This document shows, one piece after another, positions 47,882-55,983 of a DNA stretch of 64,000 nucleotides; position 1 is the first letter of the stretch, and every line of letters starts with the position of its first letter. Source of the stretch: Synechococcus sp. Cruz-7E5 (GTDB taxonomy: Bacteria > Cyanobacteriota > Cyanobacteriia > PCC-6307 > Cyanobiaceae); contig NZ_JAGQCE010000001.1 in assembly GCF_024345995.1 (NCBI RefSeq), positions 186,001-250,000 of the forward strand, in the 5' to 3' direction. Both the position numbers and the translations under genes were made by a program. A model generated the notes under the pieces. It ran no database searches. It was not told the origin of the DNA and saw only the letters and a list, made by a program, of their open reading frames with translations.

Positions 47882-47990
47882 TCAGTAGTGGTAGCGGCCC
47901 TGAAGAAACTCGACCCAGTCGGCCTTCACCAGATAGCGCAACGATTAAATCCGGCTGTTCGCCGGTCGGCGCCGCCAGCTCAGGGAGCGG
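47882..47990 (-). pseudogene. Remnant of a YoeB/Txe-type mRNA interferase toxin
   Basis: On the minus strand the last codons read RYLVKADWVEFLQGRYHY followed by a stop, which is the conserved YoeB/Txe C-terminus. Upstream in the same direction the DNA still resembles the SWRRR-ITGEHR region, but in another frame and with an in-frame stop, and the N-terminal half is missing. It follows the decayed YefM-type antitoxin by a few bases, the normal TA order. It is clearly non-functional. Confidence 0.7.
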
Positions 47991-48005
47991 CATGGTGGGC
48001 AAGTT

Positions 48006-48231
48006 TTAGGTTCGGGCTCGCTCAAGGGCGCTCAGCAGTCGCTCGGCATTGCGTGGTGAACGGAGCAGATGGGCCGTTTCGAGCAACCCTTCCAACTCGT
48101 CGGCGGCGACCAGTGCCAGGTCACCACCCTTGCGGCGACGCATCCAGCACCACATCCCGATCCTGAACCACCTGATCCATCAGGCTTTTGAGCTGTTTTC
48201 TGGCGGCACTGTATGTGGTTTCGATAGGCAC
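48006..48231 (-). pseudogene. Frameshifted YefM/Phd-type antitoxin
   Basis: A GTG start at 48231 reads PIETTYSAARKQLKSLMDQV and then VQDRDVVL before going out of frame. The rest continues one frame over as RRRKGGDLALVAADELEGLL and ETAHLLRSPRNAERLLSALE to a stop at 48006. The two halves join into a nearly full YefM protein if one indel near 48140 is restored. The toxin remnant follows directly downstream. Neither half appears as a sensible ORF by itself, so the gene is easily missed. Confidence 0.78.
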
Positions 48232-48688
48232 GATCAAGGCTGTACAGACATGTTAGAAATCTTAGAGTGAGGATCGGGTCTGGCACCAGCTCAGCACAGG
48301 CATCTTCGGGCAGGCCAACTCATCTAGCTGGCATGAATGATGGCTGATGTAATGTGTACCTGCGGATGGAACCATTGTTCGGCATTAATGCTGTTCATGG
48401 TCTTCCATCCATAACGACCGATGCCGTTTCTTTTGACCCAGTGAGCATCAGGGTCCCTTTGCCGCATCAATTCCAAGTTGTCTGCCCATATTCTCTTGCG
48501 ACTTACCCACTTGTAAGATGGATTCTATCATTAATCTCTCTTGGAGCTGCGGGCTTAGCAGCCATAACGGCCAGATATTAAATTATAATCTAACGCTTTA
48601 AGGGTCTGCATTTGCCCACAGAATACCCAAAACTGTATACCTCTATACAGATGAGGCCTTGCAGCAAGCGCTTAAAGGTCTTAACATA
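48232..48688. other. AT-richer intergenic region before the Hint gene
   Basis: About 457 bases carry no credible gene. The composition drops visibly (runs such as AAATTATAATCTAACG) compared with the rest of the window, and this continues into the N-terminal part of the following gene. A 75-codon plus-strand ORF at 48354-48581 has poor coding character. The only clear signal is a TATAAT hexamer about 100 bases before the Hint start. Confidence 0.55.
48584..48589 (+). promoter_or_regulatory. Candidate -10 element (TATAAT) for the Hint gene
   Basis: A perfect TATAAT lies 100 bases upstream of the preferred ATG. The -35 position (about 48561) reads GCCATA, which is not a good match, so any promoter would be of the extended or activator-dependent sort. 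The AT-rich setting makes chance occurrence likely. Confidence 0.3.
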
Positions 48689-49594
48689 ATGAAGGCATCC
48701 AGCAAAATCACTGTGACAACACAAGTATTTTTCCAATTCTATAGCCTTACAGGCAATGGCAATTCCCTAAAAATATCCAACAATCCTAGCTCTGGTCAAG
48801 TTATCGCAACCGATCCAGACGGTGGGACATTATCGCCTGGTGAGGCGGTTACAATCGGTGCTACTACATATTATTTTGTTAGTAGCTATGCAGGTGGATT
48901 TATCCTATCTGAGACACCCAATGGCACTCCCGCATTTCTGGCCACAAATACCACTTATGCCGCTAACTTCAATATTCCATCCGGCCAGACTTCACCAGAT
49001 CCAGTCATCCTCTGCTTCCTAGCTGGCACACTGATTGACACCCCGGCAGGCCCCCAGCCGGTTGAGACTCTTCAGCCTGGCGATCTGGTGATCACCGCTT
49101 CGGGTGAGCGTCCGGTGAAGTTTGTCTCCCGCAACCGCTACTCTCTCGGGCTGCTCGAATCAGTGGATTCCCTCCCGGTGTGCATCCGCGCTGGTGCCCT
49201 TGGCGAGGGTCTTCCCCGCCGTGATCTCTTCGTCACCGGCAACCACGCGATCCTGATCGACGGCCATCTGGTTCACGCTTCGGCGCTGATCAACGGCAGC
49301 ACCATCGTGCGCACCACGGTTGACGACTGGACCGCGGGTGAGCCGATCTCCTACTACAACGTAGAGATGGACGAGCACAGCATCATCCACGCAGAAGGCC
49401 AGCCCGTTGAGTCGTATGTTGACAACCTTCCCCGCAACAGCTGGGAAAACTACGAAGATTATCTCAAGCTCTATGGTGAAAATCAGCCGATCCAAGAAAT
49501 GGATCTGCCCCGCGTGCGCTATACCCGCCAGCTGCCCGCTGCCCTGAAGCAGAAGTTAGTCCTCAGCGAGGAGCTAAAACTGGCTGCCGTCTGA
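48689..49594 (+). CDS. Hint (hedgehog/intein) domain protein with unrelated N-terminal domain
   Basis: This 301-residue protein starts at the ATG at 48689, with an AAAGG ribosome site about ten bases before; a TTG at 48659 is also in frame. Residues 1-108 are a Thr/Ser/Asn-rich, beta-looking domain. From about residue 108 a Hint_2-type domain begins (CFLAGTLIDTPAGPQPVETL, QPGDLVITASGERPVKFV, FVTGNHAILIDGHLVHASAL, YYNVEMDEHSIIHAEGQPVE). Such domains can self-cleave at their N-terminal Cys. The two parts differ sharply in base composition (AT-richer, then GC-rich from about 49010). A strong terminator follows. Confidence 0.85.
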   Translation: MKASSKITVTTQVFFQFYSLTGNGNSLKISNNPSSGQVIATDPDGGTLSPGEAVTIGATTYYFVSSYAGGFILSETPNGTPAFLATNTTYAANFNIPSGQTSPDPVILCFLAGTLIDTPAGPQPVETLQPGDLVITASGERPVKFVSRNRYSLGLLESVDSLPVCIRAGALGEGLPRRDLFVTGNHAILIDGHLVHASALINGSTIVRTTVDDWTAGEPISYYNVEMDEHSIIHAEGQPVESYVDNLPRNSWENYEDYLKLYGENQPIQEMDLPRVRYTRQLPAALKQKLVLSEELKLAAV

Positions 49595-49635: not shown

Positions 49636-49670
49636 AAAGCCCCGGTGTCGAAAGATTCGGGGCTTTTTCT
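49636..49670 (+). terminator. Rho-independent terminator after the Hint gene
   Basis: AAAGCCCCG (49636-49644) pairs with CGGGGCTTT (49658-49666) over a 13-base loop and is followed by further T residues, giving a nine-pair stem. It is 40 bases after the Hint stop and may also end transcription arriving from the rfb operon on the other strand. Confidence 0.85.
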
Positions 49671-49700
49671 TTGGCCTTGTGCTGCTAAAGGCCTGACCGC

Positions 49701-50261
49701 TTAAAATTGCGGTAGCCGCTCCACAGACTGATCGGCGATTGTGGGGTTATCAAGATCCTTCACCGAGAGCTGCGGCTCCACCCCATCGGGAAGATCAGGC
49801 CACTCGATTCCCACACCGGGATCATCCCAAGCAATCCCCTGCTCGGATGGCGGGTGGTAATAGTCGGAGCAGAGGTAGCAGAAATCGGCCACCTCGCTGA
49901 GCACCAGGAAGCCATGGGCGAAGCCTGGCGGTACCCAGAGTTGGTGATGGCTAACGTCGTCGAGGATGGCGCCCACCCACTGGCCGAATGTGGCTGACCC
50001 GCGGCGCACATCCACCGCCACATCGAACACCGCGCCGCGGGAGCAGCGCACGAGCTTGCCCTGGGTCTGCACCAGCTGGTAGTGCAGGCCTCGCAGGACA
50101 CCGCAGCGGGAGCGCGACTGGTTGTGCTGCACCAGCGGCGGAATGCCGGCCTCGTCGAGCACGGTCTGGCGGGCGGTTTCCACGAAGAAGCCGCGCTCAT
50201 CGCCGAACACCTTCGGTTGAAAGAGCAGAACCTCGGGGATCGACTGGGGAATGATCTGCAT
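49701..50261 (-). CDS. rfbC: dTDP-4-dehydrorhamnose 3,5-epimerase
   Basis: RfbC is the third enzyme of dTDP-L-rhamnose synthesis. The 186-residue cupin protein has VLLFQPKVFGDERGFFVETA, the catalytic-His region GVLRGLHYQLVQTQGKLVRC, FDVAVDVRRGSATFGQWVG, and WVPPGFAHGFLVLSE with the substrate-binding His. It is the last gene of the rhamnose operon, one base downstream of rfbB. Confidence 0.96.
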   Translation of the reverse strand: MQIIPQSIPEVLLFQPKVFGDERGFFVETARQTVLDEAGIPPLVQHNQSRSRCGVLRGLHYQLVQTQGKLVRCSRGAVFDVAVDVRRGSATFGQWVGAILDDVSHHQLWVPPGFAHGFLVLSEVADFCYLCSDYYHPPSEQGIAWDDPGVGIEWPDLPDGVEPQLSVKDLDNPTIADQSVERLPQF

Positions 50262-50262
50262 C

Positions 50263-51336
50263 TCAGGCGAGGCGGGCGGCGTACTGGGAGTCGAGATAGC
50301 TGGCGTATTCCGCGGACAGCAGCGGTTGCCACCACTCGCGATGAGAGAGATACCACTGCACGGTGCGCCTGAGCCCCTCGTGCACCGTCACCTGGGGCTG
50401 CCAGCCGAGCTCCTCGCTGATCCGGGTGGCATCGATGGCATAGCGGCGGTCGTGGCCGGGGCGATCGGTCACGAAGCGGATCAGTTCGCGGCTGGGCCGA
50501 ACCGGCAGCTCGGGTGCGAGTTCATCCATCAGGCCGCAGAGCATGCCCACCAGATCGAGGTTGGCCACTTCGTTGCAACCGCCGATGCAGTAGGTGCGAC
50601 CGGGTTCGCCGGCCAGCAGGATGCGGTCGAGGGCGCGGCAGTGGTCCTCCACATACAGCCAGTCGCGCACGTTGGAGCCATCTCCGTAGACCGGGATGGG
50701 CCGGCCCAGCAGGATGTTGATCAGGGTGAGCGGGATCAGCTTTTCCGGGAAGTGATAGGGGCCGTAGTTGTTGGAGCAGTTGCTCACCAGCACCGGCAGG
50801 CCGTAGGTGTGCTGCCAGGCGCGGGCGAGGTGATCGCTGGCGGCCTTGCTGGCGGCGTAGGGGGAACGGGGGCTGTAGGGGGTGGTTTCGCAGAAGGGGG
50901 GATCGCTGGGCTCGAGGCTGCCGAACACCTCATCGGTGCTCACGTGCAGAAAACGCCAGTCCGTTGGTGATCCAGCCGCGAGCCAGTGGTCGCGGAAGGC
51001 CTCCAGCAGCGTGAAGGTGCCGTTGACGTTGGTGGCCAGGAAGGCACCGGGCCCCGTAATCGAGCGGTCCACGTGGGATTCGGCCGCCAGATGGGCCACA
51101 TGGGTGATGGCGTGCTCCGCCAACAAAGCGTCCACCAGCGGGCGATCGCCGATGTCGCCGTGCACGAAACGGATGCGGCCCGAATCGATCAGCGGCTGGA
51201 TCGTGGCCCGGTTGCCGGCATAGGTGAGGGCATCGAGCACCACGATCCGGTCACCTGGATGAGCAGCGGCCCAGTGGTGGGTGAGGTTTCCGGCGATGAA
51301 GCCGGCGCCGCCGGTGATCAGCAGATGACGGGTCAT
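50263..51336 (-). CDS. rfbB: dTDP-glucose 4,6-dehydratase
   Basis: RfbB is the second enzyme of dTDP-L-rhamnose synthesis, an extended SDR protein of 357 residues. It has the NAD loop LITGGAGFIAGNLTHHW, HLAAESHVDRSITGP, FLHVSTDEVFGSLE and the catalytic YAASKAASDH, then NNYGPYHFPEKLIPLTL. Its ATG overlaps the stop of a 27-codon ORF (ATGA), suggesting translational coupling to it. Confidence 0.96.
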   Translation of the reverse strand: MTRHLLITGGAGFIAGNLTHHWAAAHPGDRIVVLDALTYAGNRATIQPLIDSGRIRFVHGDIGDRPLVDALLAEHAITHVAHLAAESHVDRSITGPGAFLATNVNGTFTLLEAFRDHWLAAGSPTDWRFLHVSTDEVFGSLEPSDPPFCETTPYSPRSPYAASKAASDHLARAWQHTYGLPVLVSNCSNNYGPYHFPEKLIPLTLINILLGRPIPVYGDGSNVRDWLYVEDHCRALDRILLAGEPGRTYCIGGCNEVANLDLVGMLCGLMDELAPELPVRPSRELIRFVTDRPGHDRRYAIDATRISEELGWQPQVTVHEGLRRTVQWYLSHREWWQPLLSAEYASYLDSQYAARLA

Positions 51337-51416
51337 TTGGCGAGTGAGAGGGGAATGTTGGGGCTTTCGGGATTCACGTCCACGCTCTGCAATTGCGGGC
51401 GCAACACCAGATCCAT
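51333..51416 (-). CDS. Possible 27-residue ORF between rfbD and rfbB
   Basis: An ATG at 51416 opens a 27-codon frame (MDLVLRPQLQSVDV, then NPESPNIPLSLAK) that stops inside the rfbB ATG (ATGA). It fills the only gap in the otherwise packed rhamnose operon. It could be a coupling leader for rfbB, a real small protein, or a remnant of a lost gene. It is too short to judge by composition. Confidence 0.4.
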   Translation of the reverse strand: MDLVLRPQLQSVDVNPESPNIPLSLAK

Positions 51417-51441
51417 GTCGTCAGTTAAAACGGGGCTCGGA

Positions 51442-52374
51442 TCAGGCCCATGCGCGTAGGCAGTTGCGGAGATCCTCGCGCCAATCGGGCGGAGGGATGT
51501 CAAAGGCGGCACTGAATCGGCTGGTATCCATGCGGGAATTGGCAGGGCGCTGTGCTGGGGTGGGGTAGGCGCTGGTGGGGATCGGGGTGAGGTCCGGAGT
51601 ACGTGCCAGCAAACCCAGCGCCATCGCCTCAGCAAAGATCGCCTCGGCAAAGCCGCACCAGCTCACGGCCGGTTCGCCGGCGTAGTGATAGGTGCCCCAG
51701 GGGAAGGGTTGCTCGGGATCCAGGGGTGAGCGGTTGGCGATGGCCGCTTCGGCCAGGCTGAGCCAGGTGATGGCGATGGCCTCGGCGCTGGTGGGGCCGC
51801 CGATCTGATCGGCCACCACGGACAGGGCCGGACGCTCGGCGCCCAGACGCAGCATCGTGCGCACGAAATTGGCGCCCTCCTCACCGAACACCCAGCTCAC
51901 CCGCAGCAGCAGATGGGGGCCACCGGCGGCTCGCAGGGCCTCCTCGCCGGCCAGCTTGCTGGCGCCATACACGCCGAGAGGGCCGGTGGGATCGTCCTCC
52001 CGCCAGGGGCGCTCGCCGTCACCGGCGAAGACGTAGTCGGTGGAGAGGTGAAACAGGGGCAGGGAGCGGGCGGCGCAGGCGCGGGCCAGCACGCCCACGG
52101 CGGTGCCGTTGATGGCTGCCGCCAGCTCGGGTTCGCTCTCGGCCTTGTCGACAGCGGTGTAGGCGGCGGCATTCAGAACCAGAGCGGGCTGGTGTTGCTC
52201 GAGGAGTTGCTCAACGTTGGCGGCCAGCTCAGGGGCGGGGGCAGCCAGATCCAGCTCAGGCCGGGCGGCCAGCAGCAACGGATGCTTGGGCAGCAGGGAA
52301 GGGGCCAATCGCCGCAGGGCAGAGGCCACCTGGCCGGAGCGGCCGATCACAAGCACGGGGGAGGGGCTGGACAT
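51442..52374 (-). CDS. rfbD: dTDP-4-dehydrorhamnose reductase
   Basis: RfbD catalyses the last step of dTDP-L-rhamnose synthesis. From the ATG at 52374 the SDR protein has 310 residues: VLVIGRSGQVASALRRL, VLNAAAYTAVDKAESEPELA, LFHLSTDYVFAGDGERPW and the catalytic YGASKLAGEEALRAAG. The frame stays open upstream over rfbA, but that part is not coding. It is four bases downstream of rfbA. Confidence 0.96.
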   Translation of the reverse strand: MSSPSPVLVIGRSGQVASALRRLAPSLLPKHPLLLAARPELDLAAPAPELAANVEQLLEQHQPALVLNAAAYTAVDKAESEPELAAAINGTAVGVLARACAARSLPLFHLSTDYVFAGDGERPWREDDPTGPLGVYGASKLAGEEALRAAGGPHLLLRVSWVFGEEGANFVRTMLRLGAERPALSVVADQIGGPTSAEAIAITWLSLAEAAIANRSPLDPEQPFPWGTYHYAGEPAVSWCGFAEAIFAEAMALGLLARTPDLTPIPTSAYPTPAQRPANSRMDTSRFSAAFDIPPPDWREDLRNCLRAWA

Positions 52375-52378
52375 GGCG

Positions 52379-53278
52379 TCAGAGCCCCTCCTGGAGAAGG
52401 GCTTCGAGGTAAGCGCCATAGCCCGACTTGCGCAAGGGTGCTGCCAGAGCCGCGAGCTCATCGGCACTGATCCAGCCCTGGCGCCAGGCCACCTCCTCTG
52501 GGCAGCCAATTTTGAGCCCCTGCCGGTGCTCGAGGGTGCGGATGTAGCTGCCGGCCTCGTGGAGGGAATCACAGGTGCCCGTGTCGAGCCAGGCCATGCC
52601 ACGGCCGAGCAGCTCCACTCGCAGGTCGCCGCGATCGAGGTAGAGCTGGTTGAGGGTGGTGATCTCCAGCTCACCTCGGGCCGAGGGCCTCACCAGGCGG
52701 GCCAGCTCCACCACATCTGGGTCATAGAAATAGAGGCCGGTGACGGCGTAGTTGGAGGCAGGCTGGAGGGGCTTCTCCTCCAGGGAAACCACCCGCTGAT
52801 CGCCATCGAAACCCACCACGCCATAGCGCTGAGGGTCGGCAACGCGGTAAGCGAAGACGGAGGCCCCGGAGGGCTGGGCACTGGCGGCCTGGAGGTTGCG
52901 GGAGAGATCGCCGCCGTAGAAGAGGTTGTCACCGAGGATCAGAGCCGCTGAATGGCCGGCAAGAAACTCGGCGCCGATCAGGAAGGCCTGGGCGAGCCCG
53001 TCCGGGCTGGGCTGCTCGGCATAGGAGAGGGAAATCCCCCAGGCACTGCCATCCCCAAGCAGGGCGCGGAACTGTGGCAGATCGCGGGGGGTGGAAATGA
53101 TCAGAATCTCATCGAGGCCCGCCAGCATCAGCGTGCTGAGTGGGTAGTAGATCATCGGTTTGTCGTACACCGGCAGGAGCTGCTTGCTCACGGCCTGAGT
53201 GATCGGGTGCAGCCTGGTGCCTGAGCCACCAGCCAGGATGATGCCCTTGCGCCTTGTGCTGGAGGCAGAGACGGAAAA
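52379..53278 (-). CDS. rfbA: Glucose-1-phosphate thymidylyltransferase
   Basis: RfbA is the first enzyme of dTDP-L-rhamnose synthesis, making dTDP-glucose. The roughly 299-residue protein has [54 protein letters not shown] and [20 protein letters not shown]. The ATG at 53278 is preferred to an in-frame upstream start at 53314 that overlaps the preceding gene. It is the first rhamnose gene after the large TPR/GT32 gene. Confidence 0.96.
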
Positions 53279-53307
53279 CATGCAGCTTGTGAAGGAGCGA
53301 CGACCTT

Positions 53308-55983
53308 TTACCACGAAAGTGAAGGTGAGGCTGTGCTGCGAATCTTCAATGCCCCGCGCTGAGCCATCTTTTCCTGGATCAGACGCTTCGACTGTCCTCT
53401 GGAACCTCTGGGAGCCACCCAGCTGCCTTCGTTGACCTTGACGGGTGTCTGAAGGTGCATGCTCACTCTTCTGCTGAGCTCATGCTGGGTCAGGATTCGC
53501 ACATCTGTAGGCGCAGGTAAATCGGGATTTGAGAGCGTATCGCCATAGAGGCGGCAAAAGCAGAGACTCAGGACACCGGGCCCAGTGATGAACCAGGGAT
53601 TGCTGCCCTGGAGATCGAGGATGTTCCAAGCAGCCATTTCAAGTGCCATCTCAATCAGGGGATGACGTGGTGCCGCAGCGATGAAATTGTTGCCGATTGA
53701 GCCAATCTCCTCCTGATAGAGAACCAGGCTCACCCGATCTTCAACCAGAGGCGCAAGACTGTGCCTACAACGATCATCAGCGTCTGCATAAATACCGCCG
53801 AACGCATAAAGATAACTAAGACGGAACAGATCCGACTGCAACACCGGCGAATTCAAGCAGGAATAAGCCTCCTTAACCAAGTCCGATGAATGTTCAGCGA
53901 TGAATTCACGAGCCGTACTGGCATCAAAAACTAGATGCTGATAGGATGGGTTGGCAAGGCGCCAGCTCTGCATGAGTGTACGCACACCATCGGGAACTTC
54001 ACTGGAATTCCAGAACTGAAGAATCAAGCGTGGAATTTGCCGATCATCAGATCGTTCGAAGAACTTTTCAGAGACTTCAGCCGGCCCTCTCCAGCGACGG
54101 AGCTGGCCGGATAGGCGAGCTGCAACTAACAAAGAGATTGCAGCGGCCGAGCAATCCGGCTCCTCCAGAAGTAGCGAATGAAGAGGAGCGAGCCGCGATT
54201 GTGGAGGCTGCTTACTGATGTCTCTGATCCGAGAACTGGCAAACCGGTTCGTATGAAAGTGCTCCATCAGGCAGCGATGCAAGCCGTGGAAGGCCGTCTC
54301 GACCAAACGAGGATTCCCGCTGGCTTGCTTAGTGGCGCGAATCTTGTAAAAAAGAGCCTGAGCTTCCTCAAATCTCATCAGTAGAGTATAAAGTAAGCAA
54401 GCCCACTCAGCAGCCTGAAGATCCAGTGGCTCCTTGTCGAGAAGTGTTTCCAAAGGGAGGAGCGCCTCGTCATACAAGTACTGCGTCTTGAGCCAATGAC
54501 TACGGCTCAGACAAGCCTGACGAATCTGCTCTGTGCTCACCGGATGGAGAGAGTCAAGCGCTTCAGCTGCTCTCCCATCCCCTGTGTTCATCAGCAGGGC
54601 GGCCCGCTGCAAGCGGGCATGGAAGCCAACAACAGGATCATGGGAGAGTCCGTCGGCGATGGCCAGAGCCGCTTCATAATCGCCGGCGCCGCGATAGAGG
54701 GTGACCTTCGAGAACTGAAGCCATGGTTGCGCGACGAGGCCCTGCACCTCACCGATACGGCGTTCAGCCTCCTGCAACATGTCAAGACCTTCCTCAAAAG
54801 CACCGATCTCTGCAAACAGGCTGGCCAAGGCAACAGCATGGTCTGGAGAGATGGGGTCCTTCTCAACGGCGGCCTTCAGCAGTTTGAGACTTTCGGGCAG
54901 ATGACCCAGCTCACGCTCCACAACACCTCTGGCCTGGAGACCATGAGCAACCAGCACGGTGTCCTCTCCGGGATCAAAGGCATCAAGGGTTGAGAGGGCT
55001 TCAGCCAGTCGCCCCAACTGGCGCAACAGGCCGACATGGCGGAGTCGGTGCCAGGAGGTGCCGGCAGGCAGTCTGAGCAGGGAGCTGGAAACCACCAGGG
55101 CCTGCTCAAGCTCACCGAGGGCCTGGCAGAGGTCGATCCGGGCGGAGAGCAGCTCGGGGTCGTGGGGTTCGAGCTGGAGGGCGTCCGCCAGCACTTGCTC
55201 TGCCTCCTGGGTCTCCTGCGCCGCCACGAGGCACTGGCTGAGGGTGCGAAGCAGAGCGTGGTTCCCTGGCTGGCGTTCGATGGCCCGCCGGTACCAGGGA
55301 ATGGCGGCGGCCTGGTTTCCCTGGCTGAGCCGGAGTTCGCCCATGCCAAGCACGGCAGCGAACTGGTCGGGCTGGCGCTCGAGGACGGCCTGCAGGATCC
55401 GCTCCGCTTTGGCATGGTCTCCCAGCTGGCGATGGCAGCGGGCAGTAGCGGCGAGCAAGTTGGCGTCCTCTGGGGCAAGGATCAGAGCCTGTTGGAACAG
55501 GTTGAGGGCAGCTGAAAACCTGCCATTGGCGTAGGCGACTTCTGCCGCCTGAATCTGGTCGGGCAAGGTCTCCGCGGGTGGCGCCGCCATCGGTGCCGCC
55601 TGGTGCCACGCTTGGCTCCGGGTCTTGAGGAGCTCCACTGCGCAACGAGCACCTAAGTGGCCGGGATCCAGCTCCAGCAGCTGTTGGTAGGTCTGGCGTG
55701 CCTGCTGGAGATCATCCCGCTGGAGCTTGGCCTCCGCCAGAGCCAGCAGAGCGGGAGATGAGGCGGGGTTCTGATCCAGCAACGCGGCGATCAGGGCATC
55801 GGCATGATCGCCCTGGCCATGCCGGCGGTGCAGCCGGGCTAGTGCGGCCACGAGAGTGTCGGCCTGGGGCATCCCCTGGTGGGCTCGTTGCAGTGCATCG
55901 AGGGCAAGCTCCCAGTTGCCGAGCCGTTCAGCTTCGTACGCCTCTTCGAGAGCCTGGTGGATGAGAACCCTGTGTGGCGTCAT
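53308..55983 (-). CDS. Large TPR protein with C-terminal GT32-like glycosyltransferase domain
   Basis: This 891-residue protein has about 560 N-terminal residues of TPR repeats (for example [20 protein letters not shown] and [20 protein letters not shown]). They are followed by a sugar-binding DxD glycosyltransferase domain of the Och1/capsular (GT32) type: [40 protein letters not shown] and [12 protein letters not shown], with the DADD metal site. The codon composition of the C-terminal third is visibly less GC-rich. It probably transfers a sugar to a surface glycan or protein. It heads the rhamnose operon, 29 bases upstream of rfbA. Confidence 0.85.

Follow-up and report, generated by a model that had tools for sequence, protein, structure and literature searches.

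A Hint_2 protein of Synechococcus sp. Cruz-7E5 with a variable N-terminal domain and a probable self-processing, Hedgehog-like plan

RESULTS

The Hint_2 gene and its locus

The window, a stretch of 64,000 nucleotides of the Synechococcus sp. Cruz-7E5 genome, harbors on its plus strand an open reading frame that extends from an ATG at 48689 to 49594 and translates into 301 amino acids. The frame is uninterrupted from 48659, where a TTG represents a possible alternative start; the ATG at 48689 is favored by the alignment of homologues, most of which begin with MA. The initial annotation had the gene begin at 48240, a claim that did not hold, given that the frame read from there is riddled with stops and that 48240 to 48658 is non-coding. 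Three parts are seen in the protein. An N-terminal passenger domain of about 108 amino acids, belonging to no Pfam family and delimited by translation and an iterative profile, is encoded at 48689 to 49012 (here, the N-domain). It is followed at 49013 to 49423 by a Hint_2 domain (PF13403; Pfam E value of 2.9e-33), whose match of 115.8 bits against a cut-off of 28.4, covering profile positions 2 to 145 of 147, makes the protein a member of this family by sequence. The Hint_2 domain opens with codon 109, the Cys1 codon (49013 to 49015), includes the histidine of a TxxH motif (49244 to 49246), and has Glu-Ser (49409 to 49414) at the place of His-Asn in inteins. The last part, at 49424 to 49594 with the stop codon, is a conserved C-terminal tail defined by a tail profile, which ends in LAAV and has two predicted helices (residues 255 to 262 and 284 to 300). 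All these features lie on the plus strand. At an E value of 0.001 or below, this gene is the sole Hint_2 match of the genome. Neither PHROGs nor NCBIfam holds a family for the protein, the phage collection gave no match to the gene, and a single-protein scan of the genome contigs returned 44 pattern matches, none of them a relative.

Upstream of the gene lies an AT-rich stretch (48314 to 48688), probably a leader or promoter, which is part of a segment at 48160 to 48980 with a GC content of 0.46. Downstream, between the Hint_2 gene and a convergent rmlC, a terminator-like stem-loop of the form AAAGCCCCG-N13-CGGGGCTTT, followed by a T-run, was read by eye on the plus strand (49636 to 49671); it is absent from the output of the terminator scan, whose loop range was 3 to 8 only. 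Promoter and terminator scans of the locus stayed near chance level.

The gene had been described as lying at the border of a glycan island and beside a decayed toxin-antitoxin pair, and both descriptions were borne out. On the minus strand, rmlC (dTDP-sugar isomerase), rmlB-type, rmlD and rmlA-type genes occupy 49701 to 53314, and a broken YefM/YoeB-type pair is found at 47885 to 48231, with a frameshifted antitoxin and a toxin reduced to its last 17 residues. Genus-mate G002 has an intact YefM/YoeB-type pair at the same locus. Its sequence aligns with the window up to 48313 and again from 49755 on, such that the AT-rich upstream stretch is missing together with the gene. The same flanks without the Hint_2 gene were seen in G002, G003 and G006, with 103, 274 and 53 bp in its place, respectively, and G003 and G006 are also devoid of the toxin-antitoxin remnant. 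Another genus-mate, Synechococcus sp. WH 5701 (G004), which we take to be cultivated, carries two tandem Hint_2 copies beside its rmlC. The window Hint domain is nearer to that of G215, a member of another genus (67% identity), than to those of G004 (50 and 54%), and the rmlC of the window locus is 90% identical to that of G004. With the source genome included in each count, Hint_2 was present in 3 of the 9 genomes of the genus and in 15 of the 400 of the family; at the level of the phylum it was seen in 15 of 386, 8 of them over the cut-off.

A link to the rhamnose genes was considered and set aside: the location is common to the source genome, G004 and G215, and other copies neighbor other genes. 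Across Hint_2 neighborhoods, no protein cluster occurred at more than 4 of 21 loci when ORFs of at least 120 amino acids were compared, a threshold that a small immunity gene could escape. One cluster within 6.5 kb of Hint_2 genes is present at L158, L159, L161 and L164, and the two members scanned match DUF4915 (L161) and TPR repeats (L164). Separately, window positions 53308 to 55983 (minus strand) encode an 891-amino-acid TPR protein with a C-terminal Gly_transf_sug domain, and similar proteins lie near the Hint_2 genes of L160 and L174.

Fold, conserved residues and export

The model of the whole protein had a mean pLDDT of 86.8. In this model, the Hint part aligned with the BIL domain 2lwy (Z 13.1, tied for first; rmsd 2.2 over 116 residues), with Vint 8r2c (Z 11.2; rmsd 3.2 over 129 residues, with the alignment extending into the first tail helix as far as model residue 261) and with hedgehog 1at0 (Z 10.7; rmsd 2.7 over 114 residues). 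The Hint fold, Cys1 and the block-B TxxH together place the protein in the Hint superfamily.

Residue conservation was evaluated in 100 Hint_2 proteins, comprising 29 loci from whole-genome searches and 71 from scans, one of which covered the best 80 of 130 matches; nine duplicates and L118, which has no Cys start, are left out of this set. Of the 33 loci listed, L036, L042, L044, L027, L028 and L043 do not enter later analyses, and L006, L039 and the phylum matches L045 to L055 lie outside the analyses. Across two phyla, Cys1 (by selection), the Ser/Thr of T/SxxH and its histidine were each present in 100 of 100 relatives. At the column of the intein terminal Asn, as assigned by alignment, Ser or Thr occurs in 98 relatives and Asn, Gln or Asp in none, and the preceding column holds Glu in 96. 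In the structural alignment, model residue 242 falls opposite 6rix residue 145, which is the Asn that entry 6riy names. In class 1 inteins the C-terminal position is kept as Asn, Gln or Asp, and Hh-C goes no further than the first N-S acyl shift (PMC7664689). The retention of Cys1 and of the TxxH histidine, together with the missing terminal Asn, therefore suggests N-terminal cleavage or transfer without splicing.

Judged by eye, the translation has no hydrophobic leader of the kind expected of a Sec signal peptide. RTX repeats were identified by Pfam in relative L169, and a gene neighbor at L160 encodes an RTX-like giant of 2,396 amino acids, recognized by eye and by its match to L169. In G215, an hlyD-like match and a Hint gene are separated by about 1.7 kb. 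HlyD-like matches were, however, found in all 20 genomes searched, six of which are without Hint_2, and for this reason they do not indicate a dedicated exporter; only 2 of the 20 genomes have matches that pass the family cut-off, neither of these being the source genome or G215. Export by a type I system, whose substrates carry a C-terminal signal and pass through ABC/HlyD/TolC, is weakly suggested.

A recurrent N-domain in two phyla

The initial annotation had named in advance, as evidence against itself, homologues that keep the same N-terminal domain. Such homologues were found: an iterative profile seeded with the N-domain of the Hint_2 gene reached 29 of 99 Hint_2 N-termini, in Cyanobacteria and Alphaproteobacteria. 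These 99 are the set of 100 minus L094, which has 11 residues before the Cys, and some of them are cut at locus ends. A profile built from 14 alphaproteobacterial members, with the window gene excluded, found the window N-domain at an E value of 1.7e-7. The same profile recovered 6 of the 15 non-alphaproteobacterial members at E < 0.01 (L011, L013, L015, L022, L025 and L035) and missed nine, including L020 of G215; hence, 20 class memberships are firm and 9 rest on iteration. Three members, L014, L032 and L017, are marginal or truncated.

When the N-domain profile was run over 15 genomes, six strong matches were obtained, each directly before a Hint_2 domain, and one weak match (0.1) elsewhere. 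This profile is insensitive: in the genomes of L020, L029, L030 and L040 it failed to recover these members of the class, and divergent free copies could escape it. A pool of silent N-domain cassettes was set aside as an explanation, there being no strong free match in the 15 genomes by this search. The closest Pfam entry, PASTA, scored 0.04 to 0.07, below the cut-off. In the structure model the N-domain is all-beta (pLDDT 85). Foldseek returned nothing for it at E ≤ 0.001, and the best PDB match obtained with VIA had a Z of only 3.3, which is not proof of a new fold. Two IMG/VR contigs, L076 and L077, also carry the Hint_2 module, and the N-domain was assigned in both by the iterative profile only.

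A constant Hint_2 and tail with changing N-termini

Across the family, the Hint_2 domain and its tail of about 55 amino acids are constant, and the part before Cys1 varies. Among 118 gene pairs with at least 72% DNA identity, which are not independent of one another, similarity starts between -30 and +15 of the Cys codon in 83; in the remainder it extends upstream (11 pairs, two of which are the same DNA twice), starts at 16 to 60 (5 pairs) or starts later (19 pairs). In UBA5018 (G089), three modules are 92 to 94% identical in DNA, and two of the three comparisons begin exactly at the Cys codon; the N-termini before these near-identical modules have no protein similarity over the available stretches (best E value, 0.35). 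Similarly, L014 and L019 share 90% DNA identity from position -3, with N-termini that gave no significant match (E value of 0.086). The N-termini of L012 and L019 share repeats (E value of 3e-13). At the level of the family, these data agree with the proposal of a constant Hint domain behind a changing N-terminus.

Four of ten cyanobacterial relatives scanned with Pfam carry other families beside Hint_2, namely, FG-GAP repeats (two), the RTX repeats of L169 and RCC1 (one, which also has a Calx-beta match just below the cut-off), and six carry none. Ten alphaproteobacterial-type N-termini yielded one further match, to PD40. Run against 9 genomes, the tail profile had strong matches in 7, 20 in total; 19 of these fell in Hint_2 genes and the last in a Hint_2 fragment. 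Three further matches were weaker (E values of 0.03 to 0.98). A role of the tail as a general secretion signal was set aside, considering that strong tail matches occur only with Hint.

Two further arrangements were observed. In G089, an orphan Hint_2 3' fragment (L168:10103-10591, plus strand) lies right behind a complete Hint_2 gene. In L121, L125, L127, L133, L134, L139 and L156, several of which are named Acidocella or Acetobacteraceae, Cys1 to stop spans 286 to 289 amino acids, and a longer extra region replaces the short tail after Hint_2.

The composition step at the border

The initial annotation had reported a change of base composition near the Hint Cys, with the AT-richer block reaching upstream into non-coding DNA. 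Computed GC3 values rule out a uniform composition: GC3 rises from 0.36 to 0.72, with a maximum-likelihood change point at codon 106 (window position 49004; support interval, 48998 to 49040), nine bases 5' of the Cys1 codon. The step was equaled in 0 of 2,000 permutations, and at four-fold sites the values were 0.34 before versus 0.71 after the border. Whole-base segmentation also placed the upstream DNA in the AT-richer block, the 0.46 segment being flanked by segments of 0.64 and 0.61. In 140 control ORFs near by (at least 260 amino acids, with a coding-like GC pattern and Hint-like ORFs excluded; mechanical ORFs rather than curated genes), the median step was 0.02, with steps of at least 0.2 in 10 and of at least 0.36 in 1.

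The step is not confined to the window gene. GC3 is lower before Cys1 in 28 of 29 genes of the N-domain class (median step, 0.19) versus 47 of 67 Hint_2 genes with other N-termini (median step, 0.04), 96 genes in total after four cut rows were dropped. In 27 genes (L014 and L017 left out), the GC3 of the N-domain followed that of the Hint domain (Spearman coefficient of 0.70) and the GC of the flanks (0.64). Since the step is common to the class and the N-domain GC3 tracks the host, composition is not good evidence of a recent foreign origin. In our view, the step is a persistent offset that belongs to this protein class and not the scar of one recent foreign insertion.

Divergence at the Cys1 border

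In 26 genes of the N-domain class, median N-domain identity remained at 0.25 to 0.28 while Hint identity spanned from below 0.40 to 0.75, and reached 0.34 to 0.36 where Hint identity exceeded 0.75, against a shuffled baseline of 0.23; the rank correlation between both identities was weak (0.19). L040 and L032, which represent one locus in two genomes, are 0.83 to 0.92 identical at -540 to -421, 0.53 to 0.73 across the N-domain, and 0.87 to 0.98 from the Cys codon to +599, such that the N-domain divergence ends at the Cys codon; further upstream, the alignment is poor (0.37 to 0.60 at -900 to -601). Synonymous divergence behaves likewise, with a dS of 1.85 in the N-part versus 0.18 in the Hint domain for this pair; in each of the 10 pairs computed, the N-part had the higher dS. 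In these 10 pairs, dN is far below dS in the Hint domain and tail. Trees gave median end branches of 1.31 for the N-domain versus 0.26 for Hint. AU tests rejected none of the four groups missing from the N-domain tree (p values of 0.20, 0.31, 0.11 and 0.19), a cyanobacterial group was recovered in neither tree, and L032 groups with L040 as its sister in both.

When the window locus is compared with its ortholog in G215, DNA identity sets in at the Cys codon and continues through rmlC into rmlB at 77%; 5' of that codon it does not rise above background. The encoded proteins are 27% identical in the N-terminal part and 67% identical in the Hint domain and tail, and dS between the window gene and L020 of G215 is saturated in the N-part versus 0.85 in Hint. 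Given where the identity starts and the 27% versus 67% contrast, replacement of the N-domain allele is likely at the window gene. Exchange at the border was observed in relatives with dissimilar N-termini; at the window gene we infer it from the sequence. A border at the Cys can also arise from an N-domain that merely evolves much faster.

DISCUSSION

Taken together, we assign a probability of roughly 0.6 to the explanation that the gene encodes a three-part self-processing protein, in which a fast-changing passenger is joined to a constant Hint_2 domain and tail in a Hedgehog-like plan, and, jointly with this, that the composition step marks the border between a variable 5' part and a constant 3' module. 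The passenger would be a small fast-changing beta-domain, Hint_2 would start at the Cys, and the short helical tail was found with Hint_2 alone in the genomes searched. Both rapid divergence and replacements at the Cys1 border may contribute to change in the passenger. Export of the protein would not involve a Sec signal and would probably use a type I system. An N-S acyl shift would then take place at Cys1, aided by the T/SxxH histidine, and attack on the thioester by water or another nucleophile would release or cap the passenger, the Hint domain and tail being discarded. Lacking the terminal Asn, the protein is not expected to splice. The passenger itself would probably act at the surface or in contacts and be under pressure for variation.

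In one alternative, nothing was replaced at this gene; relaxed or diversifying selection lets the N-domain evolve very rapidly, with a weaker codon bias, so that similarity and GC3 both drop at the border. The end branches of the N-domain, about five times those of Hint, the agreement of its GC3 with the host, and AU tests that leave one history standing (p-AU of 0.11 to 0.31, with L032 and L040 sisters in both trees) are all consistent with this. Against it, dS also jumps at the border, in all the pairs computed, for which amino-acid selection alone is no explanation, and exchange does take place, as seen in relatives whose near-identical modules carry dissimilar N-termini. We regard it as a possibility, tentatively held. 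A recent replacement, in which a resident GC-rich Hint domain received an AT-rich N-terminal piece of foreign origin, was the proposal of the initial annotation and would account for the sharp GC3 step at 49004, for the lack of DNA similarity to the G215 locus upstream of the Cys codon, and for the absence of the gene and its AT-rich leader from the G002, G003 and G006 sites. The modular character of the family that it assumed stands; a recent foreign origin of the cargo at this gene is unlikely, since the N-domain repeatedly accompanies Hint_2 in two phyla, the step is present in 28 of 29 such genes, and N-domain GC3 tracks the composition of the host.

The constant module itself could be read differently. 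As a degenerate or inactive intein relic, it would perform no processing and be kept as a structural C-terminal domain or be decaying, which would fit the loss of the His-Asn end in the aligned relatives and the patchy distribution in the family and genus. We consider this rather improbable in light of the Cys1 and block-B histidine kept across two phyla, the intact frame, and a dN far below dS in the Hint domain and tail. Least probable is an interbacterial polymorphic toxin system with Hint releasing a toxin: Hint domains do occur in such systems, MafB among them, but here the variable part lies before Hint and not after it, the passengers scanned contain no Pfam toxin domain at E ≤ 0.001, and neighboring ORFs of at least 120 amino acids do not recur beyond the 4 of 21 loci given above. 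In polymorphic toxin systems the variable toxin domain is C-terminal, whereas the window protein varies N-terminally and ends with Hint and tail, which sets it apart from them. Compared with these alternatives, the three-part self-processing protein remains our preferred reading.

Among known systems, the nearest likeness in plan is to Hedgehog and nematode Hog proteins, which also combine a passenger, a Hint domain without splicing and a short C-terminal region, and whose fold is similar (1at0, above). In those proteins a sterol or adduct recognition region follows Hint, and autocleavage joins an adduct (cholesterol) to the passenger; in the window protein a Hint-associated tail lies at the position of that region. 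The window protein also differs in being bacterial, with no known adduct and no signal peptide by eye. Parts of PMC2362128 describe Hog genes that evolve new N-termini on a constant Hog, and further Hint groups in bacteria. The Vint domain of VWA-Vint proteins is alike in fold (8r2c), and the Pfam Vint profile was matched at 0.0007 by one of 28 members of set A3, in which the L030 row lacks its tail; Vint is, however, a separate Pfam family, eukaryotic and with a VWA passenger, as the same parts of PMC2362128 indicate.

Bacterial intein-like (BIL) domains resemble the window Hint in fold (2lwy) and in that cleavage instead of splicing would be expected. BIL domains of types A and B have a C-terminal end of His-Asn type and lie inside a larger protein. 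The window Hint differs in lying near the C terminus without the terminal Asn, with Glu-Ser for His-Asn, and does not classify as a BIL domain. In passages of PMC5874633, BIL domains are said to sit inside variable regions and the A-type to be able to splice. For PF13403 itself, PMC12487129 reports Hint with RTX domains as overrepresented in responsive Rhodobacteraceae and includes PF13403 among the units of fast responders. The literature searched, mostly outside subscription papers, gave no description of the Hint_2 tail, the N-domain, the Cys1 border or the function of Hint_2.

A broader scheme, doubtful at this stage, is that Cyanobacteria and Alphaproteobacteria share a Hedgehog-like display system, in which a hypervariable passenger is exported, Hint forms a thioester at Cys1, the Hint-associated tail positions a lipid, glycan or amine, and the passenger becomes covalently anchored; as with the Hog genes of nematodes, new passengers would be swapped in at the Cys1 codon in front of an unchanging processing module.

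If the preferred reading is true, bacteria would have evolved the plan of Hedgehog, with a constant autoprocessing module that takes new or fast-changing passengers. The N-domain, which has no name and whose identity and dS are largely decoupled from those of its Hint, would then be a hypervariable bacterial surface or signal molecule.
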